A stretch of 64,000 nucleotides of DNA, taken from Hellea sp. Its GTDB lineage: Bacteria > Pseudomonadota > Alphaproteobacteria > Caulobacterales > Maricaulaceae. Below the pieces are notes generated by a model that saw only the letters and a program-made list of their open reading frames with translations, ran no database searches and was not told the DNA's origin. Below are positions 17,241 through 62,711 of this stretch, one piece after another. Location: positions 1 through 64,000 of the forward strand of contig JAHDDX010000006.1 in the NCBI GenBank assembly GCA_020629135.1, given 5' to 3'. The position numbers and the translations under genes were made by a program. Each line of letters starts with the position of its first letter. Within the stretch, counting starts at the first letter, position 1.

Positions 17241-18212
17241 TTATGGGCGCAACAATACTTTTAATAGCTCATCAAGCTCATCAGAATTTTTATATTTGAT
17301 CCGCACTTCGCCGTTTGGCCCTTTGTGCCGAATATCTACAGACAGTCCGGTGGCGTCCATAATTCGAGCCTCGAGACGCCGTTCATCAGCCGATTTAGAT
17401 GATTTGGTTCTAGGGTTTTCGGGGCTGGCCTCTGTTTTTAAACGGCGAACCCAATCTTCAGCTGCCCGAACCGAGAGGTCATTTTTGACAATTTCTTCAG
17501 CGAGCATTGTGGGGTCGGGCGCTGCAATAATGGCGCGAGCATGGCCGGTCGAGATTTTGCCTGTTGCGAGATATTCCTGAACCCCGTCGGGCAAATTCAG
17601 CAATCGCAACATATTGGTGATGTAAGACCGCGATTTCCCAACGGCCTGAGCCACGTCTTCCTGAGTGCGCTTAAACTGGGTTAATAGTGATTTATAAGCC
17701 AGCGCCTCTTCCATTGGGTTTAGGTCTGCCCGATGAACGTTTTCAACGATGCCGATTTCCAAGGCTTCCTGGTCTGTAATCGCCCGGATAAAGACCGGCA
17801 TTGCGGACAGGCCTGCATTAAGCGCGGCCTGATATCGTCTTTCACCCGCAATGATTTGATAAACTGGTTTGTTGTGAGAAATATCAATTGGGGTTTTTGC
17901 CCCCTTAGGCAAAGGACGAACGAGGATGGGTTGTAAGACCCCTTTGTCTTTTATCGAATCTGAAAGTTCTTGAAGCTGGGCTTTATCAAAATGACGCCGG
18001 GGCTGATCAGGGTTTCGAACAAGCTGATCCATAGCCAGGGTTGAAATCCCTGGTTTTTTGGTCGCCTCGAGCTTTGAGGGTTCGGCGTCTTTGGCCTGTG
18101 GCTTGGAGTCTTCAAAGCCTGGAACCGCAACATCAGACATAAGCGCAGAAAGCCCGCGGCCTAATCCGCGCGTCTGGGCTTTGCTTTCTTTATGTTTTTT
18201 GTCTTCACTCAT
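17241..18212 (-). CDS. parB: Chromosome-partitioning protein ParB (CTPase, parS-binding)
   Basis: The 323-aa protein starts with a basic tail and RGLGRGLSALM, carries the ParB/Srx boxes (LVRNPDQPRRHFD, GERRYQAALNAG, ENVHRADLNPMEEALAY) and a central helix-turn-helix (TQEDVAQAVGKSRSYITNMLRLL), then a C-terminal dimerisation region. It binds the parS palindromes in and beside rsmG/mnmG and acts with ParA to segregate the origin. It starts 16 nt after parA. Confidence 0.96.
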   Translation of the reverse strand: MSEDKKHKESKAQTRGLGRGLSALMSDVAVPGFEDSKPQAKDAEPSKLEATKKPGISTLAMDQLVRNPDQPRRHFDKAQLQELSDSIKDKGVLQPILVRPLPKGAKTPIDISHNKPVYQIIAGERRYQAALNAGLSAMPVFIRAITDQEALEIGIVENVHRADLNPMEEALAYKSLLTQFKRTQEDVAQAVGKSRSYITNMLRLLNLPDGVQEYLATGKISTGHARAIIAAPDPTMLAEEIVKNDLSVRAAEDWVRRLKTEASPENPRTKSSKSADERRLEARIMDATGLSVDIRHKGPNGEVRIKYKNSDELDELLKVLLRP

Positions 18213-18228
18213 AATCTACCCCGTTCAT

Positions 18229-19014
18229 TTATTTATTTTTTAGCCGACCGTGGCGCTTTAATAGTTCGTCGCCCAAGGCCATATAGGCTCGGGCCCCAGC
18301 GCAGTCTGGGTCATACATCATAACTGGTTTGGCAAATGATGGGGCCTCAGCAACGCGAACATTGCGCGGAATAACAGATTGAAAAACGGCTCGCCCCAAA
18401 TGTTTGCGCACGTCTTGTGCGACCTGCGCCGATAGGCGGTTGCGTTTGTCATACATGGTCAACATCACGCCTTCGATGATCAAATCCGGATTAATACTGC
18501 CTTTGGCCATCTCTACCGTTTTTAAAAGCTGAGATAATCCCTCCAGCGCATAAAACTCACATTGCAATGGCACGAGGGCGGACCGGGAAGCCGCCAACGC
18601 ATTTACGGTCAAAAGCCCTAGAGCCGGGGGACAGTCTATTAGAATATAGTCGTAATCGCTTTTAACAGCTTCTATGGCGTCTCTGAGCCGGGTCGTGCGT
18701 CCGGCTTGTGCGCCAATTTCAAGCTCGGCAGATGAGAGATCAATATGCGACGGCACAATTGATAATCCAGGTACAGAGGTCGACTGAATGGCCTGCGATA
18801 TTTCTGCGCCATCAACCAGTACATTATAAATAGACATGCCTCGTGCGCGTCGATCAATTCCGAGACCCGTTGATGCATTGCCTTGCGGATCAATGTCCAC
18901 CAAAAGAACTGACTGTCCGCGCAGGGATAATGCGGCAGCGAGATTTATAGTTGTTGTGGTTTTTCCAACGCCGCCCTTTTGGTTTACAATTGAAATTACG
19001 CGGCACTCGGTCAT
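18229..19014 (-). CDS. parA: Chromosome-partitioning ATPase ParA
   Basis: The 261-aa protein has the deviant Walker A KGGVGKTTT near the N-terminus, the Walker A' region VDIDPQGNASTGLGI and the Walker B-like ILIDCPPALGLLTVNAL. It forms the dynamic ATPase gradient that moves ParB-parS complexes. It starts 3 nt after the rsmG stop, in the usual mnmG-rsmG-parA-parB order. Confidence 0.97.
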   Translation of the reverse strand: MTECRVISIVNQKGGVGKTTTTINLAAALSLRGQSVLLVDIDPQGNASTGLGIDRRARGMSIYNVLVDGAEISQAIQSTSVPGLSIVPSHIDLSSAELEIGAQAGRTTRLRDAIEAVKSDYDYILIDCPPALGLLTVNALAASRSALVPLQCEFYALEGLSQLLKTVEMAKGSINPDLIIEGVMLTMYDKRNRLSAQVAQDVRKHLGRAVFQSVIPRNVRVAEAPSFAKPVMMYDPDCAGARAYMALGDELLKRHGRLKNK

Positions 19015-19017
19015 AGA

Positions 19018-19653
19018 TTATCCATCACGTGGTTTTGTGCGAAGCCCCCTCACCTTCAAAACGGCGCTATTCGGGTCCGTTTGGCTCGGAATTACTTCCA
19101 CGTCGGATATCCATGTTTTTTCGGCCTGGGTCAATTCCTCTGACACGTTTTCCCCTTTAAGCAGCAAGCCCGTTGTGGATTGACCCCAAAAAGGCTGTGC
19201 ATAACCATAAAGGCGGTCTAGAGGAGCAAAAGCCCGCGCTGTGATAACATCATAAGGCTGTGCAATGAGTTTTTCAGCTCGGTCGGCCCAGACTTCAGCG
19301 GGCAGGTTTAAGCGTCGAATAACCGTTCTTAGGAAATTGGCCTTTTTTCCGGCAGATTCAACCAGGGTAACGCGCCCCCTGCCCTGAGCCTTACATCCAA
19401 TGGCCATAGCTATTCCTGGAAAACCAGCGCCAGATCCAAGATCTAAAACGGTTTCGGCCTCAGCGGGTATATGCGCCCAGAGCTGCCAGCTATCCAAGGC
19501 ATGGCGCGCCCAAAAGTCGTCCATTGCCCGCGGCGAAACAAGATTAATGCGGGCGTTCCAGCTTTCTAAAAGCTCTTTCCAGGATTGGAAATCATTAAAT
19601 GTTTCACGTGAAACATTGGGTAGACCGGCAAAATCTTGAGCTGAAAACATCAA
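19018..19653 (-). CDS. rsmG: 16S rRNA (guanine-N7) methyltransferase RsmG
   Basis: The 211-aa protein has the class I methyltransferase motif [27 protein letters not shown] and ITARAFAPL, as in RsmG/GidB, which methylates G527 of 16S rRNA. Its N-terminus contains NVSRETF, which is the translation of an embedded parS site. The start overlaps the mnmG stop by 4 nt. Confidence 0.95.
19600..19615. promoter_or_regulatory. parS site within rsmG
   Basis: TGTTTCACGTGAAACA is an exact match to the consensus bacterial parS palindrome recognised by ParB; flanking A and T extend the symmetry to 18 bp. It lies in codons near the 5' end of rsmG, about 1.4 kb from parB. Confidence 0.95.
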
Positions 19654-21602: not shown

Positions 21603-21626
21603 GGAATGTTTCACGTGAAACATTCC
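21603..21626. promoter_or_regulatory. Intergenic parS site with extended 24-bp palindrome
   Basis: GGAATGTTTCACGTGAAACATTCC is a perfect 24-bp palindrome containing the 16-bp parS core TGTTTCACGTGAAACA. It lies in the 121-nt gap between mnmE and mnmG. It is 2.0 kb from the first site, so ParB could nucleate from a pair of strong sites. Confidence 0.95.
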
Positions 21627-26289: not shown

Positions 26290-26727
26290 TTAAAAAGGCT
26301 CTATCACCGCCATGATTACAATCAGAACAGTCAAAAGCGCCGGGATTTCATTGGATAGACGATAAAATTTTTCACTGCGGGGTCTTTCGCCCCGTTCAAA
26401 TTTTTTCCGGTCCGCAGATAGCAAACCATGAAATCCAAAAATAACAAAAACTGCGGCGAGTTTCACATATAACCAGGCTGAACTGGTAAATACTTCCCAG
26501 CGAATATGAATAAGCATCAAACCAAAAACAAAAGCCAGGATCATTGCCGGGTTTATTATTATTCGTAGAAGTTTGCGTTCTTGAATTTTCAGAGTTTCAT
26601 CAAGTTCCCCACCCGGTTCAGCCTGACTGTGATAAACAAATAGTCGCGGCAAATATAACATACCGGCCATCCAAAAGATGACAAAAATAATATGGCCCGC
26701 CCGGATCCATTCATAATATTCAGACAT
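26290..26727 (-). CDS. hemJ: Protoporphyrinogen IX oxidase, HemJ type
   Basis: The small four-span protein has the HemJ pattern: an N-terminal EWIRAGHIIFVIFWMAGMLYLPRLFVYH with conserved His residues, then WLYVKLAAVFVIFGFHG and a final NEIPALLTVLIVIMAVIEPF. HemJ oxidises protoporphyrinogen IX in many alphaproteobacteria and cyanobacteria. I start it at ATG 26727 (MSEYYEW, 145 aa), preceded by GAGGTGATT; the start overlaps the hemE stop by 8 nt, which fits translational coupling in heme synthesis. Confidence 0.92.
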   Translation of the reverse strand: MSEYYEWIRAGHIIFVIFWMAGMLYLPRLFVYHSQAEPGGELDETLKIQERKLLRIIINPAMILAFVFGLMLIHIRWEVFTSSAWLYVKLAAVFVIFGFHGLLSADRKKFERGERPRSEKFYRLSNEIPALLTVLIVIMAVIEPF

Positions 26728-27766
26728 AATCACCTCGACCCGTCCGCACATGATTAATCACTGCGTGAACATTTTCGATTTTGACATCTGGTGACACGCC
26801 GTGACCCAAATTAAAAATATGTGGGCCTGTTATTTGATCTAGTACATTTTGCACGGCGGCTTCAAGCGCCTTGCCGCCAATCCTTAACGCTAATGGATCC
26901 AGATTGCCCTGAACCGGCATCGCAGATGGTATAATCTCTCTGAATTTATGCAACGGAACATCTGTCCCCGCGGCAATTGCGGTTACACCCGTTTTATGGG
27001 CGTATCGACCCGCATTCAGACCCGCTCCACGAGGAAACCCAATGATTGGACAATTAATCCCAGCCGATCTGACCCGATCTATAATCATCTTGGTCGGTGC
27101 TATAACCAACCTATCAAATAAAGCCGGTGATAACCCTTCAGCCCAGCTTTCAAAGATCTTTAAAACATCTGCACCCGCTTGCGCTTGCTTGATCAGATAT
27201 AAAGCGCTTGTTTCTGCTAAAGCCTTTAACAACTCATCCATTGCTTCTGGATGTTCATAAGCAAATCTTTTTGCCCCTTCTTTACTCGGTGTGCCGCGCC
27301 CTTCAATCATATAAGTCGCAACGGTCCAGGGTCCGCCGCAAAAACCGATTAGCGTTTTATTTTCATCTAATTCAGCCCGCACCCGTCTCACCGTTTCATA
27401 AACCGGTTCAAGATGGCTCATATCTGGATCGAATTTCCTAATGTCCGCGACAGATAACGGATCAAGAACAGGCCCAACCCCTTTCTCGAATCTGACATCA
27501 CGACCAAGGGTTATAGGCACTAATAATATATCGGCGAACAAAATTGCGGCATCCATATCATAGCGCCTGACAGGTTGAAGAGTCACTTCAGAAGCCAGGT
27601 CTGGTGAAAAACAAAAATCTATGAAGTTTTTAGCCTGGGCCCTGATTTCAAGATATTCAGGCAGGTGACGACCCGCCTGGCGCATCATCCAGATAGGGGG
27701 CGGTGTTTCTATTTTACCGCTGAGCACATTTAAGACGTTTTTTGGCAAGATGTTAAACCTGTTCAT
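26720..27766 (-). CDS. hemE: Uroporphyrinogen decarboxylase
   Basis: The protein has both family signatures, PPIWMMRQAGRHLPEY near the N-terminus and GFCGGPWTVATYMIEG in the middle, with the catalytic Asp region FSPDLASEVTLQPVRRY. It converts uroporphyrinogen III to coproporphyrinogen III. I use the ATG at 27766 (348 aa) instead of the track's TTG. Its 5' end faces the probable replication origin, as in Caulobacter, where hemE borders Cori. Confidence 0.95.
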   Translation of the reverse strand: MNRFNILPKNVLNVLSGKIETPPPIWMMRQAGRHLPEYLEIRAQAKNFIDFCFSPDLASEVTLQPVRRYDMDAAILFADILLVPITLGRDVRFEKGVGPVLDPLSVADIRKFDPDMSHLEPVYETVRRVRAELDENKTLIGFCGGPWTVATYMIEGRGTPSKEGAKRFAYEHPEAMDELLKALAETSALYLIKQAQAGADVLKIFESWAEGLSPALFDRLVIAPTKMIIDRVRSAGINCPIIGFPRGAGLNAGRYAHKTGVTAIAAGTDVPLHKFREIIPSAMPVQGNLDPLALRIGGKALEAAVQNVLDQITGPHIFNLGHGVSPDVKIENVHAVINHVRTGRGDYV

Positions 27767-27886
27767 CCCCAAATCTGAATCTCTCTATATTATAAATAAA
27801 GAAGGAATAGTTGTAGGGAGGTGGAGAATGTGGATGAAATTAACCTTTTATTGATCTGTGTTAATATCAATTAACCTTATAGAACT

Positions 27887-27895
27887 TTATCCACA
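27887..27895 (+). promoter_or_regulatory. Perfect DnaA box (TTATCCACA)
   Basis: Exact 9-mer match to the high-affinity DnaA box in the hemE-ppsR gap. It faces the opposite way to the second perfect box 31 nt downstream. Confidence 0.85.
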
Positions 27896-27926
27896 GAGTA
27901 TAAATTTAATTATGTACAAATGAATA

Positions 27927-27935
27927 TGTGGATAA
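27927..27935 (-). promoter_or_regulatory. Perfect DnaA box (TTATCCACA on the minus strand)
   Basis: TGTGGATAA on the plus strand is the complement of the perfect DnaA 9-mer. Two single-mismatch boxes in the same orientation follow at 27969 and 27981. Confidence 0.85.
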
Positions 27936-28153
27936 ATGCCACATCATACGAAAATAGGTAATACTCATAGTGGATAAATCTATGGATAAAATTGAGTCAT
28001 TTCTTATCCTCGAAGTTCATGTAATTCTTGGAATTTTCTTTTCCCCGTGTATGAATTCATGAAATAGGCCAGATTTGTTAGTGGGATTCACAATAAAACT
28101 TGGATGTGCGGTTTCGCTGGGGATAGGGTCAAAAAAGCCTGAGTAAAAAATAC

Positions 28154-28987
28154 GTGTTATCCAAAAATTCGAATATCGCCATTTACTTCCATATTCATAT
28201 GGTTTCGGATTCAACCGGAGAAACTCTGGTTGCCATGATGAAAGCTTCATGCGCGCAATATAGAGGTGCTCGGGCTTTGGAACACTTGCACACGCTTGTA
28301 CGAACTGAAGAACAAATGGAACAAACTCTGGCCGATATTGAAAATCGGCCAGGTGTCGTTCTTTATACGATTGCAAATCCTGATCGCCGAAAAATGCTCG
28401 AAAAACGCTGTAATGAACTGAAAATTCCAGCGATTTCTATTCTGGATCCAACACTGAATATGCTGGGGCGTTATCTTGGGGCAGCCATGACCCACGAAGT
28501 TGGTGCGCAACGTAATCTGGATTCTGCCTATTATGACCGAATAGCCGCATTAGATTACGCTATGGCCCATGATGATGGGCAAAATGTACCGGGCCTTAAA
28601 GAAGCCGATATCATTTTGCTGGGAATTAGCCGGACATCGAAAACACCAACCTCTATTTACCTGGCCAATCGCGGATTTAAGACGGGTAATATACCACTCG
28701 TTCCCAGTGCGCCTTTACCGGCAATTTTGGATACATTTACAGAGCCTTTTATTGTTGGACTGATAGCGTCTCCGGACCGGATCGCTCAAATTCGGTCTCA
28801 AAGATTGATCGGATTAAACGAAACCAAACAATCAACCTATACAGATATTGCTCAAGTTCGGACGGAAATGCGAGACGCAAAACGCATGTTTGTGAAAAAA
28901 GGTTATCCCGTAGTCGATGTTACGCGCCGGTCCATTGAAGAAACAGCCGCAAAAATCATCAATCTATATCAATCGGCAGGCCGATAA
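28154..28987 (+). CDS. ppsR: PPDK/PEP synthase regulatory kinase/phosphorylase (DUF299)
   Basis: The 277-aa protein starts IYFHIHMVSDSTGETL and has the P-loop-like GISRTSKTPTSIYLANRG and GLIASPDRIAQIRSQRL, all typical of the bifunctional regulator that phosphorylates and dephosphorylates pyruvate phosphate dikinase or PEP synthase. The start is probably the GTG at 28154, since family members begin just before FH.H.VSDSTGET, but no good ribosome binding site is seen; the ATG at 28199 is the alternative. Confidence 0.9.
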   Translation: MLSKNSNIAIYFHIHMVSDSTGETLVAMMKASCAQYRGARALEHLHTLVRTEEQMEQTLADIENRPGVVLYTIANPDRRKMLEKRCNELKIPAISILDPTLNMLGRYLGAAMTHEVGAQRNLDSAYYDRIAALDYAMAHDDGQNVPGLKEADIILLGISRTSKTPTSIYLANRGFKTGNIPLVPSAPLPAILDTFTEPFIVGLIASPDRIAQIRSQRLIGLNETKQSTYTDIAQVRTEMRDAKRMFVKKGYPVVDVTRRSIEETAAKIINLYQSAGR

Positions 28988-47899: not shown

Positions 47900-48952
47900 T
47901 TACTGTCTTGTTCCAAGGCGCTGGTCAATGGCTGAGCTTGTGCGCTCCCACCACCCATGATTGTCTACATACCATTTTACGGTATTTCGCAGGCCGCTCT
48001 CAATCGAGACCGACGGTGTCCAATCCAGTTCTGTTTTTATTTTTTGAGCATTGATTGCATATCTGAGATCATGGCCGGGCCGGTCGTCGACAAACGTAAT
48101 CAGATCTTCATATTGCCAATCCTGCGGGACTTCTTCCGACAATATCTGACAGATCATTTTTACAAGGTCTATATTGGTTTTTTCGCTGTCCCCACCAACA
48201 TTATAGGTTTCGCCTGGACGCCCCCGTTCAATAATAGTCAAAAGAGCATCCGCGTGATCATCTACATATAGCCAGTCTCTGATATTTTCTCCGGTCCCGT
48301 AAACGGGAAGTGGCTTTTTTTGCAAAGCTCTTAAAATCGTAACCGGAATAAGTTTTTCCGGGAATTGAAAGGGCCCATAATTATTAGAACAATTCGATAT
48401 TAAAACAGGGAGGCCATAGGTTCGTCCCCAGGAGCGAACCAGATGATCTGATGCGGCCTTTGAGGCGGAGTAGGGTGAGCTTGGCTTGTAAGGATGAAGT
48501 TCGGTAAAGGCGGGTTCATTTAAAGTGAGGTCTCCGTAAACCTCATCTGTGGAAACATGCAAAAATCGAAAGGCGTTGGGACCTCGATAAGTTTCCAGAT
48601 AGTCTCGCGATAGCTCTAAGAGGTTTGCAGTGCCGATCACATTGGTCTCAAGGAAAATTTGAGGGGCGTCAATTGAACGGTCAACATGGGATTCCGCGGC
48701 CAGATGTATAATCCCATCTGGTTTGTGTTGCAGCACCACCTCTTTCAGAGCCGGGCGATCATTGATACTAACCTGCTCGAATTGATAATTTGAGCTGTCT
48801 TTGACCGATCTAAGATTTTCGAGATTGGCCGCATAGGTCAGACAATCGATATTCACGACACGATAGCCTTTTGCAATTGCCTTCCTGATGAGCGCGGAAC
48901 CGATAAATCCGGCCCCACCTGTTACGAGCAGCGTTTTTAATTGATCATTCAA
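47900..48952 (-). CDS. rfbB: dTDP-glucose 4,6-dehydratase
   Basis: The 350-aa SDR protein has TGGAGFIGSALIRKAI, HLAAESHVDRSI, HVSTDEVYGDL, the active-site YSASKAASDHLVRSW and ISNCSNNYGPFQFPEKLIP. It converts dTDP-glucose to dTDP-4-keto-6-deoxyglucose. It lies 11 nt after rfbC and 69 nt before rfbA. Confidence 0.95.
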   Translation of the reverse strand: MNDQLKTLLVTGGAGFIGSALIRKAIAKGYRVVNIDCLTYAANLENLRSVKDSSNYQFEQVSINDRPALKEVVLQHKPDGIIHLAAESHVDRSIDAPQIFLETNVIGTANLLELSRDYLETYRGPNAFRFLHVSTDEVYGDLTLNEPAFTELHPYKPSSPYSASKAASDHLVRSWGRTYGLPVLISNCSNNYGPFQFPEKLIPVTILRALQKKPLPVYGTGENIRDWLYVDDHADALLTIIERGRPGETYNVGGDSEKTNIDLVKMICQILSEEVPQDWQYEDLITFVDDRPGHDLRYAINAQKIKTELDWTPSVSIESGLRNTVKWYVDNHGWWERTSSAIDQRLGTRQ

Positions 48953-48963
48953 GGCGGTTCTCT

Positions 48964-49518
48964 TTAAAACGGCGTGTCAAAAGCGGAAAAGGTCGGTGCA
49001 TGACGATCTTTATCTGACACAATTTTTGTATCAGCTTCATAGTGCCAATCAATGCTCAGACTGGGATCCTTCCAGGAAACAGACATTTCACATTCCGGGT
49101 GGTAATAGGTATCACATTTATACACGATGTGTGTATTGTCTTCCAGAGTCTGAAAACCATGTAAAAAGCCAGGGGGAACCCATAATTGTCGGCCATTCTT
49201 TTCGCTGAGCTCAATACTGAAATATTGGCCATAAGTGTCAGACGTCGCGCGAACGTCAACCGCGACATCTAGAACGCGGCCTCTCGTACAACGCACCAAT
49301 TTTCCCTGAGCGTGTGGCGGGGCTTGTAAATGCAGACCCCGGATCGTATTTTTGTGTAGAGAAACGGACTGGTTATCTTGAACAAAAGGCTTGTCATGCT
49401 GGGTAGCTGTTACAAAATTTGACCTACGAAATGACTCACTAAACGACCCACGTCCATCATTAAAAATGGTGGGAACAAAAACGACCAGTCCTTCGATATT
49501 TGTGTATTCAACTTTCAC
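48964..49518 (-). CDS. rfbC: dTDP-4-dehydrorhamnose 3,5-epimerase
   Basis: From the GTG at 49518 the 184-aa product begins VKVEYTNIEGLVVFVPTIFNDGRGSFSESF and contains QDNQSVSLHKNTIRGLHLQAPPHAQGKLVRCTRG (catalytic His region) and VPPGFLHGFQTLEDNT, all typical of RfbC. I prefer this start because the 21 extra N-terminal residues in the track are not family-like and the length becomes standard. rfbD, needed to finish dTDP-L-rhamnose, is not in the window. Confidence 0.92.
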   Translation of the reverse strand: MKVEYTNIEGLVVFVPTIFNDGRGSFSESFRRSNFVTATQHDKPFVQDNQSVSLHKNTIRGLHLQAPPHAQGKLVRCTRGRVLDVAVDVRATSDTYGQYFSIELSEKNGRQLWVPPGFLHGFQTLEDNTHIVYKCDTYYHPECEMSVSWKDPSLSIDWHYEADTKIVSDKDRHAPTFSAFDTPF

Positions 49519-49721
49519 TTGGTCAGCTCTGCATTGCGACAAATTCAAACGGGTTGTAACGACCGAAACCGCATTTACCAAGTTGGTTTTTGAATCAATC
49601 GCAGACCGGCTTTATATCTGTTGATTTTGAAAATTTTGGGTTGATCTTCATTTCCAGTTGCGCCATATAGCGCGTCTTCGACCAAAAGAGTGGCTTTGTC
49701 GCTCTTTATTACGTCTTTTGA

Positions 49722-49796
49722 GCGGGCGTAGCTCAGTGGTAGAGCATCACCTTGCCAAGGTGAGGGTCGTGGGTTCGAATCTCATCGCCCGCTCCA
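49722..49796 (+). tRNA. tRNA-Gly (anticodon GCC)
   Basis: GCGGGCG...CGCCCGC forms the acceptor stem with TCCA at the 3' end. The D arm is GCTCAGTGGTAGAGC, the anticodon arm TCACC-TTGCCAA-GGTGA gives GCC, and the T-loop is TTCGAAT. Length is 75 nt including CCA. Confidence 0.97.
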
Positions 49797-49852
49797 TTTT
49801 ACTTTTATATTAATTTCCAGGTTACGCATTAAGAGCCAGTTATTAGCCGTGC

Positions 49853-51877
49853 CTAATTGGCGTTTACATCAAGCAATTCTCTGATCTCGAATTCCAGCAA
49901 ATCGGTTAAGGTCAAAATCATGGGCACACTGATATGTGTGCTGTCACGATATACCATTATATTGTCTATAATGACGGGACAGGTTGCGGAAGGGCACAAT
50001 GCCTGATTGAGGTCAATGTAATCAACTCCAAGGTTTCGGGCCGTTTTTTCTTGCCAGGCCATATGTGCAAGAGCGCTTCGTTTGGTTCGGTCGCAGGTTT
50101 TTCCGTCTGCTAAAATACAATCCCAGTAACCGTCATATGCTTTGGGTGTATCGCCCACCAATACGACACGTACATTTAGCTCGGTCAATTTTTTTATCAT
50201 CGACTGCAGCCCGGTCTGGTAAATATTCGTTGCGAGGGACGGGTCAGTAACAATCATATTGTCCGCGGTTATCCATCCCAAATAGTCTGTGTCATTTGTC
50301 AGGACAATGATGGGGCGTTGGTTGATGGGCGTCATTTTTATTTGTTCAAGCACTGAAGTTTTCCAGGCCTCACACGATATATAATTACTTTTATACCCCT
50401 TGTGCCAGATAGGAATGTCTACGGAAGGGCAAGAGGATTTGGTCACAGCTCGGATGTTAAGGGATTGATCCGTCTCCATATTTATATTTGACGCCGCCGA
50501 ATTGAAAACGGGCAACCATTGCGCTGCGTGACTATCCCCAAACAGCCAGATCGTATGATCAGCATTTTTTGGCCCGTATAGGCAATCTTTTATAGGTTCG
50601 TACTCGTTATTGAGGTGGCAGTCATCCGCGTAACTTTCAGGCAAAATTTTGCGCTGGTCATTATAGGACGCAACCATCTCTTCAGATATGGTTTGCCTGA
50701 CCTTTGATAAAGCGGTTGCTTGTGAAATTACCCAAATACTCAGCAACATCGACCCAAAAGCCAATATCAATGTGCGGCCATTAAAGCGGGCGAATTTTTG
50801 AGAGTTCCGAATTGGGTTTTCGATAAATGAAAATGACACGATTGTCAGAACAAGAAGAGCAAGCAGGCAAAATTCGATTTGAAAAGAGCTTCCTGGGACT
50901 AATGTAGGCCCAAAATATAATACGGGCCAGTGCCATAGATAAAAAGCATAAGATCTGTCTCCAATCCATTGTGCAACAGGATTGCTAAGAAGCAAAGAAG
51001 ATGAGCCAGCTGCCAGGCAGATTAGCGCCGTGATTGTCGCTGAAGTGGGAATTAGGGCCAATGGAGCCGGGAAGCCATCAAATTCCCGCATAAAAAGACC
51101 GGATAATAGGATCGCAGTCAGGGACAAATATAGCAGAAACTGGGAAGCAAAACTTTGTTGAAAACGACTTCTAATTTTTGGCGCTATTGCCGCCAAGATA
51201 ACGCCGGCAGACAGTTCCCAAACCCTGAATTCGGTCTGGTAAAACACAACGGTCTGCTGAGTTTGTGATTTAAAAATGCCTGAGACGAGTGAGACAACCG
51301 AAAGCGCACCTAAAGTTATGATGATGGTGCGAAGCCTAAGGCGGAGGAATGAAAAACCTAAGAGTATTATTGGAAAACCAATGTAAAACTGCTCTTCAAT
51401 GCTTAGTGACCAAAAGTGCAGAAATGGGCTCTGAGGCCGATCCAGCATAAAATAATCTTGGGCGCTAAAGGAAAAAGCATAATTTGCGACATAAAAAAGT
51501 GAGGCCAATGCGTCTTTTTTAACGTCTTCGAGAAAATCAACAGGCGTATACATAATCGCGAGAAAATACGTAACCAAAATTACCAACAAGGCCTGAGGCA
51601 ATAATCGCCGAACACGACGAGCCCAAAAGGTGACGAGCGCTTTATATCTGTTCTGGGGCGTGGACGTGTAGACGGAGTCAAACAATATACCGCCGATCAA
51701 GTACCCGGAGATCACAAAAAAAACATCTACCCCTACAAAACCGCCATTTACATTTCCGTATCCGGCATGAAAAAATACCACGAGCAAAACGGCAAGCGCC
51801 CTCAAACCCTGAATGTCCCCGGAAAATGGGACGCGGAAATGACGTTGTTGTGTCGGCGTAGTGGTTATTGGGTTCAA
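49853..51877 (-). CDS. OafA/YrhL-type O-acyltransferase with C-terminal SGNH domain
   Basis: The 674-aa protein has an acyltransferase-3 membrane domain (DIQGLRALAVLLVVFFHAGY, GGFVGVDVFFVISGYLI, HFWSLSIEEQFYI, about ten spans over residues 20-390) and a periplasmic SGNH domain with IWLFGDSHAAQWLPVF and the final DSTHIS. Such fused proteins O-acetylate surface polysaccharides. It lies just after tRNA-Gly in the polysaccharide region, divergent from the GT2 gene. Confidence 0.9.
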   Translation of the reverse strand: MNPITTTPTQQRHFRVPFSGDIQGLRALAVLLVVFFHAGYGNVNGGFVGVDVFFVISGYLIGGILFDSVYTSTPQNRYKALVTFWARRVRRLLPQALLVILVTYFLAIMYTPVDFLEDVKKDALASLFYVANYAFSFSAQDYFMLDRPQSPFLHFWSLSIEEQFYIGFPIILLGFSFLRLRLRTIIITLGALSVVSLVSGIFKSQTQQTVVFYQTEFRVWELSAGVILAAIAPKIRSRFQQSFASQFLLYLSLTAILLSGLFMREFDGFPAPLALIPTSATITALICLAAGSSSLLLSNPVAQWIGDRSYAFYLWHWPVLYFGPTLVPGSSFQIEFCLLALLVLTIVSFSFIENPIRNSQKFARFNGRTLILAFGSMLLSIWVISQATALSKVRQTISEEMVASYNDQRKILPESYADDCHLNNEYEPIKDCLYGPKNADHTIWLFGDSHAAQWLPVFNSAASNINMETDQSLNIRAVTKSSCPSVDIPIWHKGYKSNYISCEAWKTSVLEQIKMTPINQRPIIVLTNDTDYLGWITADNMIVTDPSLATNIYQTGLQSMIKKLTELNVRVVLVGDTPKAYDGYWDCILADGKTCDRTKRSALAHMAWQEKTARNLGVDYIDLNQALCPSATCPVIIDNIMVYRDSTHISVPMILTLTDLLEFEIRELLDVNAN

Positions 51878-52016
51878 AACCTGTTCCTGTTTTCTTTAAA
51901 AAACCGACAAGTATCATACTGGTTGCGGTGTAGAATACGATCCCGTGCGGATAAATATTGTTGACCATATGCCTCATAAACTCTATGGCGCCAATGACAT
52001 TTTTTGAGGGCTAACA

Positions 52017-52964
52017 ATGTATAAAAATAAGACTGTATCGGCGGTAATTCCTTGTTTCAATGAAGAAACTCAAATTGGCACTGTGGTTGAGACAATGCCT
52101 GAAATCGTTGATTTTATTGTTATTGTTGATGATAAGTCCAAAGACGAAACGGTAAAAGTCGTTAAAAAATTGCAGAAATCTGACAAACGCGTCGTACTCA
52201 TAGAACATCAGGTCAATCAGGGTGTGGGCGGAGCGATCGCAAGCGGATATGAATGGTCTCGTGACAATGACATTGATATGGCCGTTGTTATGGCGGGAGA
52301 CGGGCAAATGGACCCAAAAGACTTACCTGCCTTACTTGACCCGGTCGTTGACGACGGTGTCAATTATTCCAAGGCTAACCGACTGATTGTCAATCGATCA
52401 ATTGATAAGGTGCCTTTTGTCCGATTTTTCGGAAACTCTGTTCTTTCTTTATTGACAAAAATTTCTTCGGGCTACTGGCATGTATCCGATTCTCAAACTG
52501 GATATACTGTTGCCGATAAATCCGTGCTTCATGCTATCGACTGGCAAAAAATGTATAAACGTTATGGCCAACCAAATGATCTGTTGATCAAGTTAAATGT
52601 GCACAATTTTAAAGTCCGGGATGTTCCGACAGAGCCGGTCTACAATGTCGGGGAAAAAAGCGGAATTAAAGTCAGAAAGGTTATTTTCACAATCAGCAAT
52701 ATTCTCGTCAAAGGATTTTTCTGGCGAATGAAAGTCAAATATGTAATTCGTGATTTTCATCCTTTGGTTTTGTTCTATTTATTGGGCTTGCTTCTTTTGC
52801 TTGTCGGCGTTCTGTTTTTGCTTCGATGTGTTTGGGTTCTTATTGCGACAGGCTCAGCGCCACTAATCAGCACAATCAGCATGTTTTTCATGTTAGCGAC
52901 AGGGCTGCAATGTATGTTTTTTGGTATGCTGTTTGACATGCAAGACAATCGAGACTTGAAATAA
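52017..52964 (+). CDS. Family 2 glycosyltransferase with C-terminal membrane hairpin
   Basis: The 315-aa protein has a GT2 domain (VSAVIPCFNEETQIGTVVETM, FIVIVDDKSKDET, NQGVGGAIASGYEWS, VVMAGDGQMDPKDLPALLDP) and two C-terminal hydrophobic segments (VLFYLLGLLLLLVGVLFLLRCVW and ISTISMFFMLATGLQCMFFGML). It resembles polyprenyl-phosphate glycosyltransferases of the DPM1/GtrB type. The sugar and acceptor are unknown. It lies 19 nt before the ABC export permease. Confidence 0.88.
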   Translation: MYKNKTVSAVIPCFNEETQIGTVVETMPEIVDFIVIVDDKSKDETVKVVKKLQKSDKRVVLIEHQVNQGVGGAIASGYEWSRDNDIDMAVVMAGDGQMDPKDLPALLDPVVDDGVNYSKANRLIVNRSIDKVPFVRFFGNSVLSLLTKISSGYWHVSDSQTGYTVADKSVLHAIDWQKMYKRYGQPNDLLIKLNVHNFKVRDVPTEPVYNVGEKSGIKVRKVIFTISNILVKGFFWRMKVKYVIRDFHPLVLFYLLGLLLLLVGVLFLLRCVWVLIATGSAPLISTISMFFMLATGLQCMFFGMLFDMQDNRDLK

Positions 52965-52983
52965 TAGGATAACCGTCCAGCTG

Positions 52984-53832
52984 TTGCTGCGGATTGAGGA
53001 TGTGACCGAAAAATTTGCTTCAAATTTATTTGTTCCGACACTTTTCAGTGAGCTCTTGCTGTGTGGGCGTGACTTTTGTCAGTCATTCGCAAGGTCGGAT
53101 CTATGGCTCAAATTGGCGTGGCGGGACGTCAGAGTTTTGTTTGAAAGATCATTTATTGGCCCGCTCTGGATGACCATCCAAGCCGCGCTTTGGACGATTG
53201 CCATTGTTTTTGTTTTTGGCGGCATTATTGCGCCCGTTAAAGAATATGTGGTTTATGTTGCCGCCGGTATTGTTCTTTACAATTTTATTACCGTCATTGC
53301 GACGGATAGCAGTGAAATTTTCATAAAACACCGCATTATTATTCATTCACACCCAAACCCTTATTTTGCCTATATTTTGAGGCATATCGGATTTTCTGGT
53401 ATTCAATTGTTATTTCAATCCATCGTTGTGGCTGTCGCTATGGTTTGGGCGCAACACACACTTTCCCTCACCGCCCTTTGGGCAATTCCGGGTATTGTCC
53501 TTTGTGTAATCATGGGTGTATTTACATCATTATTGTTTGCATTAATCGGGTTGAGGTGGGGAGATTTTAGATTTGCCATGCTAGCGATTATGCGCCTTGG
53601 ACTTTTTGTTACTCCAATCCTCTGGTATCCGGATAACGGGGGTGCCTTAAAGAAAGTTGCGGCTCAAATTAATCCCATAAGCCACTTTGTTGATGTAGTT
53701 CGACAGCCTTTGCTGGGTTCCGTTCCGTCTACCTTAAACTATGTGGTTGTTTTTACGGCTATTGCGATTGCATGCTTCGGATCTATATGGATGTTTGCAA
53801 AGTTTAGACGTACAATACCGATGTGGGTGTAA
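52984..53832 (+). CDS. wzm: Polysaccharide export ABC transporter permease (Wzm/KpsM-type)
   Basis: The 282-aa ABC-2 permease has a cytoplasmic N-terminus, then LKLAWRDVRVLFERSFIGPLWMTIQAALWTIAIVFVFGGI and six hydrophobic segments, with the family-like LWYPDNGGALKKVAAQINPISHFVDVVRQPLLGS near the C-terminus. It moves polyprenyl-linked glycan across the inner membrane with the adjacent ATPase. The start is uncertain: TTG at 52984 in the track, or GTG at 53002. Confidence 0.9.
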   Translation: MLRIEDVTEKFASNLFVPTLFSELLLCGRDFCQSFARSDLWLKLAWRDVRVLFERSFIGPLWMTIQAALWTIAIVFVFGGIIAPVKEYVVYVAAGIVLYNFITVIATDSSEIFIKHRIIIHSHPNPYFAYILRHIGFSGIQLLFQSIVVAVAMVWAQHTLSLTALWAIPGIVLCVIMGVFTSLLFALIGLRWGDFRFAMLAIMRLGLFVTPILWYPDNGGALKKVAAQINPISHFVDVVRQPLLGSVPSTLNYVVVFTAIAIACFGSIWMFAKFRRTIPMWV

Positions 53833-54599
53833 TGGCGCACATCTTTGCTGAAAATCTGTCTATTTTGTTTCCGCTTAGCCGAACGAGGTTAAAGCGGAAG
53901 TTTATTTCACGTGGCGGCACAGTCGGTGGGGACATCGTCTATATTAATAAGACGCCCCATATCGCGGCGCTAAAGAATGTAAATCTCACCTGTAATCCAG
54001 GTGACAATGTTGCGCTTATCGGCCCGAACGGGTCCGGGAAAACGACATTACTGAGAACATTGGCGAGGATTTACGAGCCGACGGGAGGCCAGGTTGCATG
54101 CGAAGGTACAATAGCGACATTGTTTTCCAGCTCTGTATCATTAAGCGATTTGGAAACGGGGCGAGAAAATATTTATTATGCATCAGTGCTAAGAGGTATT
54201 TCCAATCAATATTTATCAGCTCAACTTAACAATATTATTGAAATATGTGAGCTTGGGGACTCTATTGATTTACCTGTTTCTATGTACTCGGAAGGCATGA
54301 AATCGCGGTTAGGGTTCGCCATGGCCCTTATTGCCAACCCCGATATAATGCTGATTGATGAGGTGATCACGACAAGTGATATACATTATTTGCAACGCGT
54401 TGCCGCGCAGTCGAACTTTTTCAAAAACCCGAATGGAATTACTGTTATTGCGTCGCACGCAACGGATATTTTGGACTTGTATTGCAATAAAGCGCTATGG
54501 CTTGATTCTGGTGAGGTTAAGGCATTTGGCCTTTATGAGGATGTTGTGGCAGAATATAAAACAGCGCAAACAGCTCAGGTCGGCGATGATATAAATTAA
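53832..54599 (+). CDS. wzt: Polysaccharide export ABC transporter ATPase (Wzt/KpsT-type)
   Basis: The 255-aa ATPase has Walker A IGPNGSGKTTLL, the degenerate signature YSEGMKSRLGFAMALI, Walker B IMLIDEVI and ASHATDILDLY with the switch His. It starts at ATG 53832, overlapping the permease stop by one base (TAATG). It lacks the roughly 150-residue C-terminal carbohydrate-binding domain of O-antigen Wzt proteins, so it is nearer to KpsT or short Wzt. The 3' end overlaps the convergent sulfotransferase by 4 nt. Confidence 0.9.
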   Translation: MAHIFAENLSILFPLSRTRLKRKFISRGGTVGGDIVYINKTPHIAALKNVNLTCNPGDNVALIGPNGSGKTTLLRTLARIYEPTGGQVACEGTIATLFSSSVSLSDLETGRENIYYASVLRGISNQYLSAQLNNIIEICELGDSIDLPVSMYSEGMKSRLGFAMALIANPDIMLIDEVITTSDIHYLQRVAAQSNFFKNPNGITVIASHATDILDLYCNKALWLDSGEVKAFGLYEDVVAEYKTAQTAQVGDDIN

Positions 54600-55453
54600 C
54601 TGTAACCGAAATAATCCATCATGTCTTTGGACTGACGCCAAAATTCGTCCAACGCAGTTTGATCCCAATCACCATGGCTGGGCAGTATATAGCTTTTGTT
54701 ACTTTTGCGTCCGTTAATTCTATCTTTCAAAAGGGCTTCAACTTTATCGGTTTTTGGCCAGTCAATTCCTAAAAAATCCCGAATTTCATCATAACATTGT
54801 TCCGTTTCAGAAAAGAAAGTCTCTGACTTAACGAATAACACCTGATCATTTGACCAGCTATTTGCTACGCCTTTTAATACGGTTCGATAGGTTTCTGCCC
54901 ATAGCCAGGCATTTTTCTCAATAGGCGAATAGTTTTTCCATTCTTCAAAACTCGCGCTGCCTTTTAGCGGGCGTAGACGCCCCATAGCGATATAGCGCTC
55001 TAAATCTGTTAACTCGGTCGTCGCATCAAGCCAGCCCACGGGTGTCGGGTCAGGGCGGTCAGATGTATAAACGGATCTGACAAAATTTCGGCCGTCGCGA
55101 ACAAGAACAATAAGGCGGGCTTCGGGAAAAACCTTGGGAATCACCGACACAAAAGGTGAATTATTATAGGCGATATCGCCAAACCCTTTTAACTTTTCCT
55201 TCTCGCAAATATCATAAACATTTTTGCGTTTGCTTTGAAAAATGCCCTGAGCGAGTTCCGGTTTTGCATATGCCTGATAATTTTCAAGTGTTAAAAATGG
55301 AATCCACTGCTCCAGGGATTCTTCCCGCTCGCGTATTTTTCCCTCATGCAAGGTAAGCAGGCCTTCTTCTGCATTCAATAAATTAGACAGATACATCGAT
55401 CCGCAGCGACCTGCGCCTGCGCCAAAAAAAATAAGGGGCTGTTTTTCAGTCAA
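54596..55453 (-). CDS. PAPS-dependent sulfotransferase
   Basis: The 285-aa protein has the 5'-phosphosulfate loop FGAGAGRCGSMYLSNLL at the N-terminus and the 3'-phosphate motif RLIVLVRDGRNFVRSVY, the two PAPS-binding signatures, with FLGIDWP late. It would sulfate a glycan or lipid in the cytoplasm. It is the last gene of the minus-strand operon and its start overlaps the carrier protein's stop by 4 nt, linking sulfation to the carrier/ligase/MBOAT genes. Confidence 0.85.
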   Translation of the reverse strand: MTEKQPLIFFGAGAGRCGSMYLSNLLNAEEGLLTLHEGKIREREESLEQWIPFLTLENYQAYAKPELAQGIFQSKRKNVYDICEKEKLKGFGDIAYNNSPFVSVIPKVFPEARLIVLVRDGRNFVRSVYTSDRPDPTPVGWLDATTELTDLERYIAMGRLRPLKGSASFEEWKNYSPIEKNAWLWAETYRTVLKGVANSWSNDQVLFVKSETFFSETEQCYDEIRDFLGIDWPKTDKVEALLKDRINGRKSNKSYILPSHGDWDQTALDEFWRQSKDMMDYFGYS

Positions 55454-55686
55454 GATGATTTCCTGGAAATGACGCCTAATATGCCTTCGACGGAAGTCAT
55501 TTCAAAGGCATCATCTGGCTCAATACTGACTCCGAACTCACTTTCAACCGCGAGCATAACGTTAATAAAAGAAAGTGAATCCCAGGCCGCTACTGAATCC
55601 ATTGTCGCGTCGCTGGTAATTTCATCGCGAATTTCTTCGCCAAAAACAGAAACAAACGCGTTTTGAATTTTATCAATCATTTTCAA
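55450..55686 (-). CDS. Acyl/aminoacyl carrier protein (DltC-like)
   Basis: The 78-aa protein is a carrier-protein fold with phosphopantetheine attachment at Ser37 in MDSVAAWDSLSFINVMLAVESEFGV. Size and the WDSLS motif match both acyl carrier proteins and DltC. Because a SerRS-like ligase lies two genes upstream in the same operon and such ligases load dedicated carrier proteins, I infer that it carries an amino acid thioester. The nature of that amino acid is unknown. Confidence 0.85.
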   Translation of the reverse strand: MKMIDKIQNAFVSVFGEEIRDEITSDATMDSVAAWDSLSFINVMLAVESEFGVSIEPDDAFEMTSVEGILGVISRKSS

Positions 55687-55713
55687 AGATCTCCTGTCAC
55701 GGCAACATGGCCC

Positions 55714-56667
55714 TTATCGAGCAGATTTCAAGGATTGTGCCAGCCAATGTGTGTATTTTTCTCGACCAATTGCCGTCATATGGGTTGTATCAGCGTATCC
55801 ATCTATATTTTCGATTTCTCGTGTCAAGTCTTCGCCAGGAATAAATAGTTGCGCGCCGACTTTGGTCTGAAAAACCGAACTAAATTCGGGATCCAGCGTT
55901 TTATAATAGGCCTGATTTATATGATAAAAATAGAGTTTGACATTATTTTCGGAAGCGAAATCAACCATTTCTTTAAAGAACCCAAAATCATGCCGAGCGG
56001 CTTCAGAGTCCAGGTCCCAAGACCACTTTTGATCGACATAATATTGATGGTAACGCGCTTCTTGCTGGTCAAGATAGCCCCGCCGAATACGTTCCTCTCG
56101 GGTACGGCAATATCCGGTTGTTGCCGGAGATGGAGCGTCGGAGATTGCAAGATCGCCCATTTTACCTGACAAAATGAGACTGAATTGTTCTGTTATGCGC
56201 TCAATGATTTTTTTGGAACTTACGCTCAAAATATCAAAATCAAATTCGCCGGCAGATCGAAATCGGTAGCTCTTTATCCAGTCGGATATTTTTCCAACCA
56301 CGAAGAAATGCGCGTGATATGTTCCGCCTTCCGGGAGGTTGGCTTCCACAAGTATTGTGTCGACCTCTCGGCGCGAAATTACGTCCCGTAACAAGGCATA
56401 ATTTATACCTTGCCCGCGCCAATTTTTGGCCAAATTGTAAACCGTAGTGCCGCCCAACTCGTTTGACAAAATTTCGGCATCTACACCCTGTAACGAACGT
56501 GACGAACCTATGACGACAAGATCCACAGGTCCTTTTTGCCCATAAATCATGTCAAACTGACAGGGATATTTGCTATATCGATAGGCGGGACGATCCGTCG
56601 CTTTAATCAAAAAAGCCACAAGGGAGACAAATAGTATTATACCCGCAATTCTTAAAGGATTGGACAT
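55714..56667 (-). CDS. Membrane-anchored SGNH-type protein, DltD-like
   Basis: From the ATG at 56667 the 317-aa protein has one N-terminal membrane segment (IAGIILFVSLVAFLI) and an extracytoplasmic domain with a nucleophile motif VDLVVIGSSRSLQGVD (GSS at 54-56) and a C-terminal D-x-x-H pair (Asp293/His296 in ADTTHMTAIG), the arrangement of DltD and SGNH acyltransferases/esterases. In Dlt systems this subunit transfers D-Ala to the polymer. Sequence similarity beyond the motifs is weak, so the DltD analogy rests on motif, topology and neighbours. Confidence 0.72.
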   Translation of the reverse strand: MSNPLRIAGIILFVSLVAFLIKATDRPAYRYSKYPCQFDMIYGQKGPVDLVVIGSSRSLQGVDAEILSNELGGTTVYNLAKNWRGQGINYALLRDVISRREVDTILVEANLPEGGTYHAHFFVVGKISDWIKSYRFRSAGEFDFDILSVSSKKIIERITEQFSLILSGKMGDLAISDAPSPATTGYCRTREERIRRGYLDQQEARYHQYYVDQKWSWDLDSEAARHDFGFFKEMVDFASENNVKLYFYHINQAYYKTLDPEFSSVFQTKVGAQLFIPGEDLTREIENIDGYADTTHMTAIGREKYTHWLAQSLKSAR

Positions 56668-56675
56668 ATTCGAAC

Positions 56676-57872
56676 TTAAATTGCTTGTGTGAATTTCGAC
56701 GCTTCTAATGGTATCTGGTCGGGCCAATTGCTTGGTGAAATACCTTTTTGAGCAATAAGGGCGTAGGCCAATCTTTCATAACCGACGCCGAAGCAGCCGG
56801 AATGACCATCCGAAACTTCAGCTTGCTCAATGTTATAGGCCTGCACCAAAGTTTGTTGATGATTATTGAAGCTGGCAACCGATATCCATTTATCTTCTTG
56901 CGGTATAAAGGCTTGAAGCTCGTATTTCAGACGGAATAATCGCTGGAAGTCTTTTTTATTTGACGCGGAAGTCGCAAAAAACGGATCAGAAGCCGCTGCT
57001 ATTCGATGTGTCATGTCAAATTCCCTAAGAAGGGATTTGCATTTTTCTAATATTTCTAACTGCCACTTTCGAACAAAGTCTTTATCTCCAAAGTAAATAA
57101 TCTCACGCATTGTGTATGTTTTTAATCTCGTTAGGCCTTGCGTGTTTTTCCCCTCATGCCGATGACATTTTCCAATAGCGGTAATCAGGCTTTGATTAGG
57201 CTTTAAAGTGCTGGCTTTAGCGCGTTCAAAACAATGATAGCAAACTGTTGGACACAAGACCTGATTGTGATTTGAGATCAGCGAATCTACATCTTTGACG
57301 CCCGAATAATCCTCAGGTGAAGATGCAATCGCCGTCAGGCTTTCAAAATCCTGGTGAATTGTGCCAGCTAAAATGGCATGTTGCGGAAACGACTTTAAAT
57401 AGCCGTTATTGAGAAGGCTGAGGGTAGGTACGGTTGTTGGATAACCCTGCTCAGTACATCCAATTTCAAGGGCATAATCCAAAAATAATTGATCAAGCCC
57501 TTTGAGCAGGGAAAATAGGTCGCCCTCAAATGAAGGAATGCCATCAGAGTTAAAGTGAAGTTGTCCGCTTTTAAGCAGCTCGGCCAGCGGATCGTCAGGT
57601 CCCGTTACTGTACCTGTATATTCTTCAAGGACTTCATCTTTGGTTTTTGCGCTCGCATCCGAGCATTTTTGCATCAATTGACTGGCAGAGTCGTTAATGG
57701 CGTCAGCTTCTCCTTCGCTGAGCGGGGTTGAAAAAAGCAAACGTAATCCCTTATTTTCAAATTCAAAATTGGAGATTTTTTCAGACACATAATATATTTG
57801 CTCTGCCACATCTTTCTTTGCGGCATCAAAATTTGTCCAGTTTTCGGGAAAGTCTACTATTATATCAGTCAT
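56676..57872 (-). CDS. Amino acid:carrier protein ligase (class II seryl-tRNA synthetase-like)
   Basis: The 398-aa protein has class II synthetase motifs: motif 2 CHRHEG...GLTRLKTYTMREIIYFG (RHE at 238-240) and motif 3 GCFGVGYERLAYAL (360-373). The likely zinc ligands Cys207/211/214, Glu257 and Cys360 match the Cys-Glu-Cys site of atypical SerRS and of the amino acid:[carrier protein] ligases of Bradyrhizobium and Agrobacterium, which load Gly or Ala onto carrier proteins. The long coiled-coil tRNA-binding arm of SerRS is absent; about 110 unassigned residues precede the core. A carrier protein gene lies nearby in the same operon. AGAGGTG precedes the ATG. Confidence 0.85.
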   Translation of the reverse strand: MTDIIVDFPENWTNFDAAKKDVAEQIYYVSEKISNFEFENKGLRLLFSTPLSEGEADAINDSASQLMQKCSDASAKTKDEVLEEYTGTVTGPDDPLAELLKSGQLHFNSDGIPSFEGDLFSLLKGLDQLFLDYALEIGCTEQGYPTTVPTLSLLNNGYLKSFPQHAILAGTIHQDFESLTAIASSPEDYSGVKDVDSLISNHNQVLCPTVCYHCFERAKASTLKPNQSLITAIGKCHRHEGKNTQGLTRLKTYTMREIIYFGDKDFVRKWQLEILEKCKSLLREFDMTHRIAAASDPFFATSASNKKDFQRLFRLKYELQAFIPQEDKWISVASFNNHQQTLVQAYNIEQAEVSDGHSGCFGVGYERLAYALIAQKGISPSNWPDQIPLEASKFTQAI

Positions 57873-57889
57873 CTTAGGTGCACCTCTTA

Positions 57890-58048
57890 TCAGTATCCTT
57901 GATATACATATTCAACTCGCCCAAACGGAAAATGGCTGATGAAATAGACGATCATCACGGCGACGATGAGTATTGTGGCAAATCGTAAAGTAGCGGAAAG
58001 AATGCTCTTTGCGGTCATTGGAGAAGTTTGTTTTAACTCGTCTGCCAT
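57890..58048 (-). CDS. DltX-like single-span microprotein (52 aa)
   Basis: This ORF is below the track's cut-off. It encodes a polar N-terminus (MADELKQTSPMTAKS), one transmembrane segment (LRFATILIVAVMIVYFI) and an aromatic C-terminus ending VEYVYQGY. Its ATG overlaps the MBOAT stop codon by one base (TAATG), and the ligase starts 17 nt after its stop, so it is translationally coupled within the operon. The final hexapeptide YVYQGY fits the pattern of DltX's FIYNEF (aromatic, aliphatic, Tyr, Asn/Gln, any, aromatic-COOH). In Dlt systems the conserved DltX Tyr is reported to relay the acyl group between MBOAT and DltD; the same role here is inference. Confidence 0.82.
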   Translation of the reverse strand: MADELKQTSPMTAKSILSATLRFATILIVAVMIVYFISHFPFGRVEYVYQGY

Positions 58049-59202: not shown

Positions 59203-59207
59203 CGATT

Positions 59208-59984
59208 TTATTTTTCAGTGGAATTTGCAAGCTGGGTCAAAACGTCTTCAAATGCGCCGATCTCGCAAGTTTTCATACTTTTGCTGATAAAGGCGTCTAC
59301 AGGCGCATTTGGGGCAATGACACATAATTTATCATTTTCAGAGCTAAAATAGGTCTGGACGAGGCTCCAGCCAGATGGTGCGGCTTCAATCGAAAAATTT
59401 TCTGGCAATTCGTGATGGCTGCCAAATAAGCCCAGCAACATACCGTTAATAGATGTTTGAAGCAGGAAAAAAGTCTGACGCGTTTGCTCCAAATTTATAA
59501 TGGTTTTGTTTTTAGGTTTCGATTTTGGGTCCAGTTTATATGAAAATGCTAATCTTTTAGAATTTGCGTCGCTATACCATCCGGTCTGGTCAAATTGGAC
59601 AAAAACTGGTGTGTCTACTTTTAACTGAGACATCCGAAGCAAGCAGGCATGAACCTCATTGAGCGCTTTGGTCGGGGTGGCACAATACCCGACTTTTTCT
59701 GATCCCTTGGACAAGCTTTTTGCCATTTTTCGAAATTTATGATCGCCAACGATAAAAATGTCTCTCTGCTTGACAGGCTGGGATTGTCTTAGCGACACAC
59801 TCATGGCGTGATGCGGATAAGATGTCAGGGGGCTTTTCATCGATTTATGCAAAAACCGATAAACATCATTACTTGAAAACAATATTAGAATTAACAGAGC
59901 CAAAAGGGCTGTTGTCGCCAATGAGACTGGCGTTCGCCGCCAGGCTGTTTCTTCAAAGGTATTTGTGCCGCTTTGACCGATCAT
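59208..59984 (-). CDS. Membrane-anchored protein of unknown function in the aminoacylation operon
   Basis: The 258-aa product has one N-terminal membrane segment (LATTALLALLILILF) and an extracytoplasmic domain with no motif I recognise. Noted elements are DIFIVGDHKFRKMAKSL after the anchor, KVGYCATPTKALNEVHACLL with two Cys, and a late GWSLVQTYFSS and KLCVIAPNAPVDAFIS. The size and topology parallel the DltD-like protein, but no GDS/GSS nucleophile or D-x-x-H pair is clear. It overlaps the upstream lipoprotein gene by 4 nt and lies 5 nt before the MBOAT gene, so it is probably part of the same complex. Confidence 0.75.
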   Translation of the reverse strand: MIGQSGTNTFEETAWRRTPVSLATTALLALLILILFSSNDVYRFLHKSMKSPLTSYPHHAMSVSLRQSQPVKQRDIFIVGDHKFRKMAKSLSKGSEKVGYCATPTKALNEVHACLLRMSQLKVDTPVFVQFDQTGWYSDANSKRLAFSYKLDPKSKPKNKTIINLEQTRQTFFLLQTSINGMLLGLFGSHHELPENFSIEAAPSGWSLVQTYFSSENDKLCVIAPNAPVDAFISKSMKTCEIGAFEDVLTQLANSTEK

Positions 59985-62632: not shown

Positions 62633-62711
62633 AGCCTGTCCTTTGTGGGGAGGGGGTTTAGCCAATAAGAGAAGGCCTTATATCAGGTAATATCGGAGCG
62701 GTGTAAAAAAA

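Follow-up and report, generated by a model that had tools for sequence, protein, structure and literature searches.

The hemE-ppsR gap and its surroundings

The window (the whole stretch of DNA that was analysed, 64,000 nt) is part of contig C10, 65.9 kb long, from a draft genome of 2.76 Mb, which comprises 105 contigs and is 85% complete. The nearest named relatives are Hellea MAGs of the Caulobacterales. The locus is a gap of 387 bp, bounded exactly by hemE and ppsR. To the left of the gap lie hemE-hemJ-rho and mnmE-mnmG-rsmG-parA-parB, and to the right ppsR-maf-aroE-coaE-dnaQ. The genes mnmE, mnmG, rsmG, aroE and dnaQ were named by translation and established gene order, not by a database scan. 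Most genes within ~8 kb of the gap are transcribed outward. The main features are:

17241-19014, minus strand: parB and parA
19601-19614: parS core GTTTCACGTGAAAC, perfect
21608-21621: parS core GTTTCACGTGAAAC, perfect
26720-27772, minus strand: hemE, uroporphyrinogen decarboxylase, left flank (TIGR01464, 1.3e-110; probable ATG near 27766)
27767-28153: hemE-ppsR gap, very probable chromosomal replication origin (flanks, clustered DnaA boxes, skew minimum, gene order shared with closed relatives)
28154-28987, plus strand: ppsR/COG1806 (PRK05339/DUF299), right flank (NF003742, 1e-93)

The gap was predicted to be AT-rich, and its AT content is 68%, versus ~51% across the window. parAB and both perfect parS sites lie 6-9 kb away, within the 5-10 kb originally given. 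The GC content of the window is mostly 43-53%. Over the last 16 kb (48000-64000), it drops from ~51% to ~43-45%, and this low-GC stretch could be a foreign or polysaccharide-type island.

The following DnaA boxes were found in the gap:

27820-27828, minus strand: weak second box GGTGGAGAA, two mismatches, in tandem with the box at 27829 (read from the sequence)
27829-27837, minus strand: TCATCCACA, one mismatch, nearest to the DnaA-trios (12 nt away)
27887-27895, plus strand: TTATCCACA, perfect
27927-27935, minus strand: TTATCCACA, perfect, orientation opposite to the box at 27887
27969-27977, minus strand: TTATCCACT, one mismatch
27981-27989, minus strand: TTATCCATA, one mismatch

The original prediction had named two perfect boxes in opposite orientation and at least three one-mismatch boxes; these two inverted and three one-mismatch boxes span 161 nt. 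As a null, 2000 dinucleotide shuffles of the gap itself were used. The shuffle mean was 0.01 for perfect boxes (two observed) and 0.22 for boxes with ≤1 mismatch (five observed), and none of the 2000 shuffles reached either count. A further one-mismatch box at 28157 lies just within ppsR. A terminator-like hairpin in the gap turned out to be an artefact of the box at 27927.

An equally close inverted pair of perfect boxes occurs in only one other place of the 2.76-Mb draft genome (G000:C68:28419-28451, corresponding to L153:1501-1533), with the boxes 15 nt apart. The pair sits just past an ABC-F-type ATPase gene, was rejected as a second origin and is possibly a DnaA-titrating or regulatory site.

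The cumulative G-C curve of the window has its minimum at 27505, at the edge of the gap, and the GC skew is -0.125 on the left (20.0-27.8 kb) and +0.042 on the right (28.2-36 kb). The keto skew of the window was uninformative, with its minimum elsewhere (41736). Genome-wide skew was sampled in two closed genomes of the same family, at 20 points of 20 kb per genome. In G005 (3.45 Mb), it turns positive within the 20-kb sample containing the gap (3.150 Mb) and negative again between 1.42 and 1.575 Mb, with the point opposite the gap at 1.425 Mb. In G045 (3.17 Mb), the change from minus to plus is at 0.345-0.365 Mb, with the orthologous gap at 0.357 Mb, and the opposite switch is at 1.94-2.08 Mb, with the point opposite the gap at 1.942 Mb. 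The GC-skew check proposed with the original prediction was passed locally in the window and in the sampled relatives.

Gene order is kept in both closed genomes: rho-hemJ-hemE-[gap]-ppsR-maf-aroE-coaE-dnaQ in G005 and hemJ-hemE-[gap]-ppsR-maf-aroE-coaE-dnaQ in G045. hemE is the upstream neighbour of the gap in ~80 of 90 relatives. The origins of Caulobacter and Rickettsia are flanked by hemE/COG1806 (PMC1914354), and in Hyphomonas the marker frequency peaks close to hemE, with parAB ~7 kb off (PMC6650430).

It is very improbable that the gap merely serves to regulate the divergent genes hemE and ppsR, from promoters under DnaA control, and that the true origin lies elsewhere, e.g. near dnaA: DnaA boxes do also regulate genes and the draft genome is incomplete, but the skew switches at the orthologous gap in two closed relatives, the 4.4 kb around dnaA (present on another contig) contain a single one-mismatch box only, and published origins lie at the same gene pair. 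Since the DnaA-box cluster, skew, parABS distance, gene direction, flanking genes and literature precedent agree, the gap is almost certainly the chromosomal origin (oriC) of a Hellea-type member of the Caulobacterales, and the predicted likeness to the Caulobacter origin is supported. Origins of this kind are well known; what is new is a fixed CtrA-unwinding unit.

A probable unwinding unit on the hemE side

The gap was collected from 90 genomes of the same family and from 21 other genomes. In the genus of the window and in genera g2, g3, g5, g7, g11, g16 and g17, the gap is mostly unalignable; one unit on the hemE side is strikingly conserved. Its order is an AT-rich stretch, AAGTAGTGATAGTAGTAG, a short GC-richer stretch, a box like TGTGGATAA and a TTAA array. 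This core of AT-rich stretch, trios and boxes, which the TTAA array abuts, had been missed by the original prediction. Besides the boxes at 27820 and 27829, the unit comprises in the window:

27781-27798: AT-rich stretch CTCTCTATATTATAAATA, probable unwinding site (DUE)
27799-27816, plus strand: DnaA-trio repeats AAG-AAG-GAA-TAG-TTG-TAG (conserved block; eight genera share the triplet pattern [T/A]A[G/A])
27840-27874: tandem CtrA-type array with half-sites TTAA at 27840, TTGA at 27851, TTAA at 27861 and TTAA at 27871 (conserved core and fixed distance to the trios)

In the 18-nt trio block, five of six triplets match [T/A]A[G/A], with a purine as the third base in 23-25 of the 25 training rows. 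Read 3'-5' from the box, the block of the relatives is GAT-GAT-GAT-AGT-GAT-GAA, which is the DnaA-trio pattern. At least three conforming triplets were present in 47 of 54 genomes, versus ~3% of background 18-mers. The best DnaA box of the relatives begins most often 11-12 nt from the trios. In 54 relatives, the 20 nt flanking the trios towards hemE have a median AT content of 80%. The pattern is stronger in the relatives than in the window, where it is broken by one TTG: read 3'-5' (27816-27799), the window has GAT-GTT-GAT-AAG-GAA-GAA, with four trios in a row after the GTT break. A 26-nt trio model could not be transferred to other families, nor to genera g4, g6, g8, g9, g12, g13, g15 and g18, and the trio reading does not extend to these. 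The module presumably resembles the unwinding region of B. subtilis, a likeness to which we give no weight as evidence.

The published rules for the basal unwinding system (BUS) are a box with ≤2 mismatches, a spacer of ≤16 bp (most commonly 10-13) and at least three NAN triplets (PMC8287927). The window has the one-mismatch box TCATCCACA at 27829, a 12-nt spacer and at least three consecutive NAN triplets, the box-proximal one being 3'-GAT-5'. Moreover, the weak box at 27820 fits the BUS tandem-box rule (PMC8287927). Judged from these sequence features, the trios and box on the hemE side probably form a BUS arrangement. It has the elements in common with the BUS of Bacillus subtilis and most bacteria: a DnaA box (tandem in the window), a 12-nt spacer, trinucleotides with a box-proximal 3'-GAT-5' and then AT-rich DNA (PMC8287927). 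The difference is the directly adjoining CtrA-type array of the Hellea unit, which the general BUS description does not have.

The CtrA-type array

The array begins 2 bp past the anchoring DnaA box (27829-27837). The original prediction had pointed to TTAA-N7-TTGA at 27840 and TTAA-N6-TTAA at 27861 as suggestive of CtrA, though not exact. Both are exactly in place, as a one-mismatch box and an N6 pair, and together they make up two neighbouring CtrA-type boxes. By count, the hint is not enough on its own: one-mismatch TTAA-N7-TTAA boxes in the window are not above chance (30 versus 37 expected). The TTAA pairs are meaningful because of their conservation alone.

The three-half-site core (≤1 mismatch) is in the same place in all 21 origins of genera g1, g2, g3, g5 and g7, versus 0.7 on average and at most 3 in shuffles. 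All four half-sites, with ≤3 mismatches, were found in nine of nine genomes of the window's genus (0.7 expected), and in some relatives (L026, L029, L041, L019, L055) all four are perfect with N7/N6/N7 spacing. The array starts 39-42 nt from the start of the trios in 48 of the 50 genomes having both, across eight genera.

The CtrA gene of the draft genome is at G000:C50:19783-20460. The protein is 86% identical to the Caulobacter sequence used as the query, and its DNA-binding region is nearly identical. The original prediction that CtrA control may be weak or changed calls for correction, as the two pairs are halves of one conserved tandem array and the DNA-binding region of CtrA is nearly unchanged. 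From the sequence, CtrA control of the origin looks retained, with one half-site degenerate in the window. Because the second half-site is TTGA and the last spacing is N6, CtrA binding may be weaker than in the relatives. That the control acts via the array at 27840-27874 is, in our judgement, fairly likely.

Two other readings of the array were weighed. The conserved block and the TTAA array might serve as a promoter under CtrA control, driving hemE or a small RNA encoded in the origin (e.g. CcnA), with the origin only in the part with the DnaA boxes. There is precedent in Caulobacter: transcription of hemE at the origin is important for replication and is repressed by CtrA, and the start of the ncRNA CcnA, which has a CtrA box, lies within the origin (PMC8959179). 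In the window, the array is ~70 nt upstream of hemE. The triplet pattern and the DnaA-box spacing, however, are those expected of trios and not of a promoter. A sigma-70 promoter scan of the gap found none, and an Rfam scan of the gap for a CcnA-like RNA gave weak chance matches only, with no family matched.

Genus g17 bears on the same question. In nine of ten fetched g17 genomes, hemE is not beside the gap, and rho or another gene borders it instead (L054, L056-L061, L063 and L064; G110, G107, G112 etc.); in L056, the neighbour is a glutathione S-transferase-like gene. In some cases, hemE has gone from the genome as well. Nevertheless, the trio block and the array stay at unchanged spacing in g17, L056 (G113) excepted, which is without the trio block. 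That the trio-array unit is retained where hemE has left argues that it belongs to the origin and not to hemE. rho is transcribed in the same direction in g17, which leaves promoter use a small probability. Overall, we regard a promoter in place of an origin element as unlikely. Control by CtrA of a hemE or origin-RNA promoter and of the origin may coexist.

It is a little less probable still, and again unlikely, that the origin is real and the array is bound by IHF or another binder of AT-rich DNA, without CtrA control. One IHF-like match (one mismatch) overlaps the start of the array, and, for Caulobacter, a paper cited in PMC4468827 names a dual IHF/CtrA site in its title. The half-sites, however, repeat at 11/10/10-11 bp, which is the exact CtrA-box spacing. 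A perfect tandem TTAA-N7-TTAA stands at the same place in the five relatives with four perfect half-sites, and the near identity of the CtrA DNA-binding region to that of Caulobacter likewise favours CtrA as the binder.

Variation among relatives and a proposed mechanism

The exact CtrA-array arrangement is not universal, because other genera of the family place CtrA-type boxes elsewhere in the gap. Genera g8, g12, g18 and g4 have a conserved TTAA-N7-TTAA (TTGTTAACACTTTATTAACG), perfect in most, ~35 nt upstream of ppsR instead of the hemE-side array. In g6, g14, g15 and g19, a TTAA array is found about mid-gap. L028 (G048, g11) keeps the trio block without the array beside it, and has a TTAA-N7-TTAA box 142 nt upstream of ppsR.

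Where the window's lineage has trios, the hemE-side element of many Caulobacterales carries a GANTC site (CcrM), frequently GAGTCGTAG. The carriers are gaps of g6, g8, g12, g13, g14 and g19 and of some other families (e.g. L076, L094, L073, L071 and L173). GANTC was present in the first 130 nt in 38 of 57 such gaps (21 expected); the window's lineage showed no such excess (15 versus 16.5 expected).

Apart from g17, G120 (L099) is likewise without hemE beside the origin. A search for hemE gave no close match in G110, G112, G114, G106 and G117 (94-100% complete) and only a 35% relative in G107, G108 and G113; hemH is likewise missing in G110, G114 and G106. Heme auxotrophy arising at the origin locus is possible.

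The gap shares several features with Cori of Caulobacter crescentus: it lies between hemE and COG1806 (ppsR), the genes beside it run outward in the same order, its DnaA boxes point in opposite directions, it has CtrA-type boxes, and parABS is within 10 kb. The five CtrA boxes of Cori are distributed along the origin (PMC1914354), whereas the Hellea gap has one tandem array on the hemE side. Moreover, the Hellea gap has two perfect consensus DnaA boxes, while Cori has G and weak W boxes (PMC10797057). Two genomes that are probably of the Caulobacteraceae, judged by composition and gene order (L160, L161), have an array TTAA-N7-CTAA-N6-TTAA-N7-TTA[A/G] beside hemE and also carry boxes farther right. 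In these two, the array itself is the AT-rich stretch next to hemE, whereas in the Hellea gap it lies beyond the trios and the anchoring box. The hemE-side array of L160/L161 may therefore not be the same by descent as that of the Hellea lineage.

Hyphomonas neptunium is a related stalked budding bacterium. Its origin has in common with the Hellea gap the location near hemE, parAB ~7 kb away and two parS sites (PMC6650430), and ChIP showed CtrA binding beside the origin (PMC7200025). In H. neptunium, neither GC skew nor DnaA boxes gave a clear answer, whereas both are clear in the Hellea window.

Read from the sequence anatomy, DnaA binding, CtrA binding, unwinding at the trios and gating would fit together as follows. 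DnaA would load onto the inverted perfect boxes and the weaker boxes and reach the boxes at 27820-27837. From there, it would polymerise leftwards on the single-stranded DnaA-trios (27799-27816) and open the AT-rich stretch beside hemE. Phosphorylated CtrA would occupy the TTAA array (27840-27874), between the anchoring box and the perfect boxes. In this position, CtrA~P would block the DnaA chain, and the origin would stay silent until CtrA is removed. ParABS, 6-9 kb away, would then segregate the duplicated origin.

We suggest tentatively, as a possibility slightly short of even, that in the Hellea lineage the CtrA array, 39-42 nt from the trios, directly locks unwinding, and that the control layer (CtrA array, CtrA boxes at the ppsR end or mid-gap, or GANTC) was swapped in evolution over one conserved element. 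The fixed CtrA-to-trio spacing makes a CtrA block of DnaA filament growth directly testable on a fragment of ~110 bp. For an uncultivated marine lineage of Hellea type, the analysis locates the origin, and it gives a comparative view of how one bacterial class may couple cell-cycle control to a general origin-opening element.
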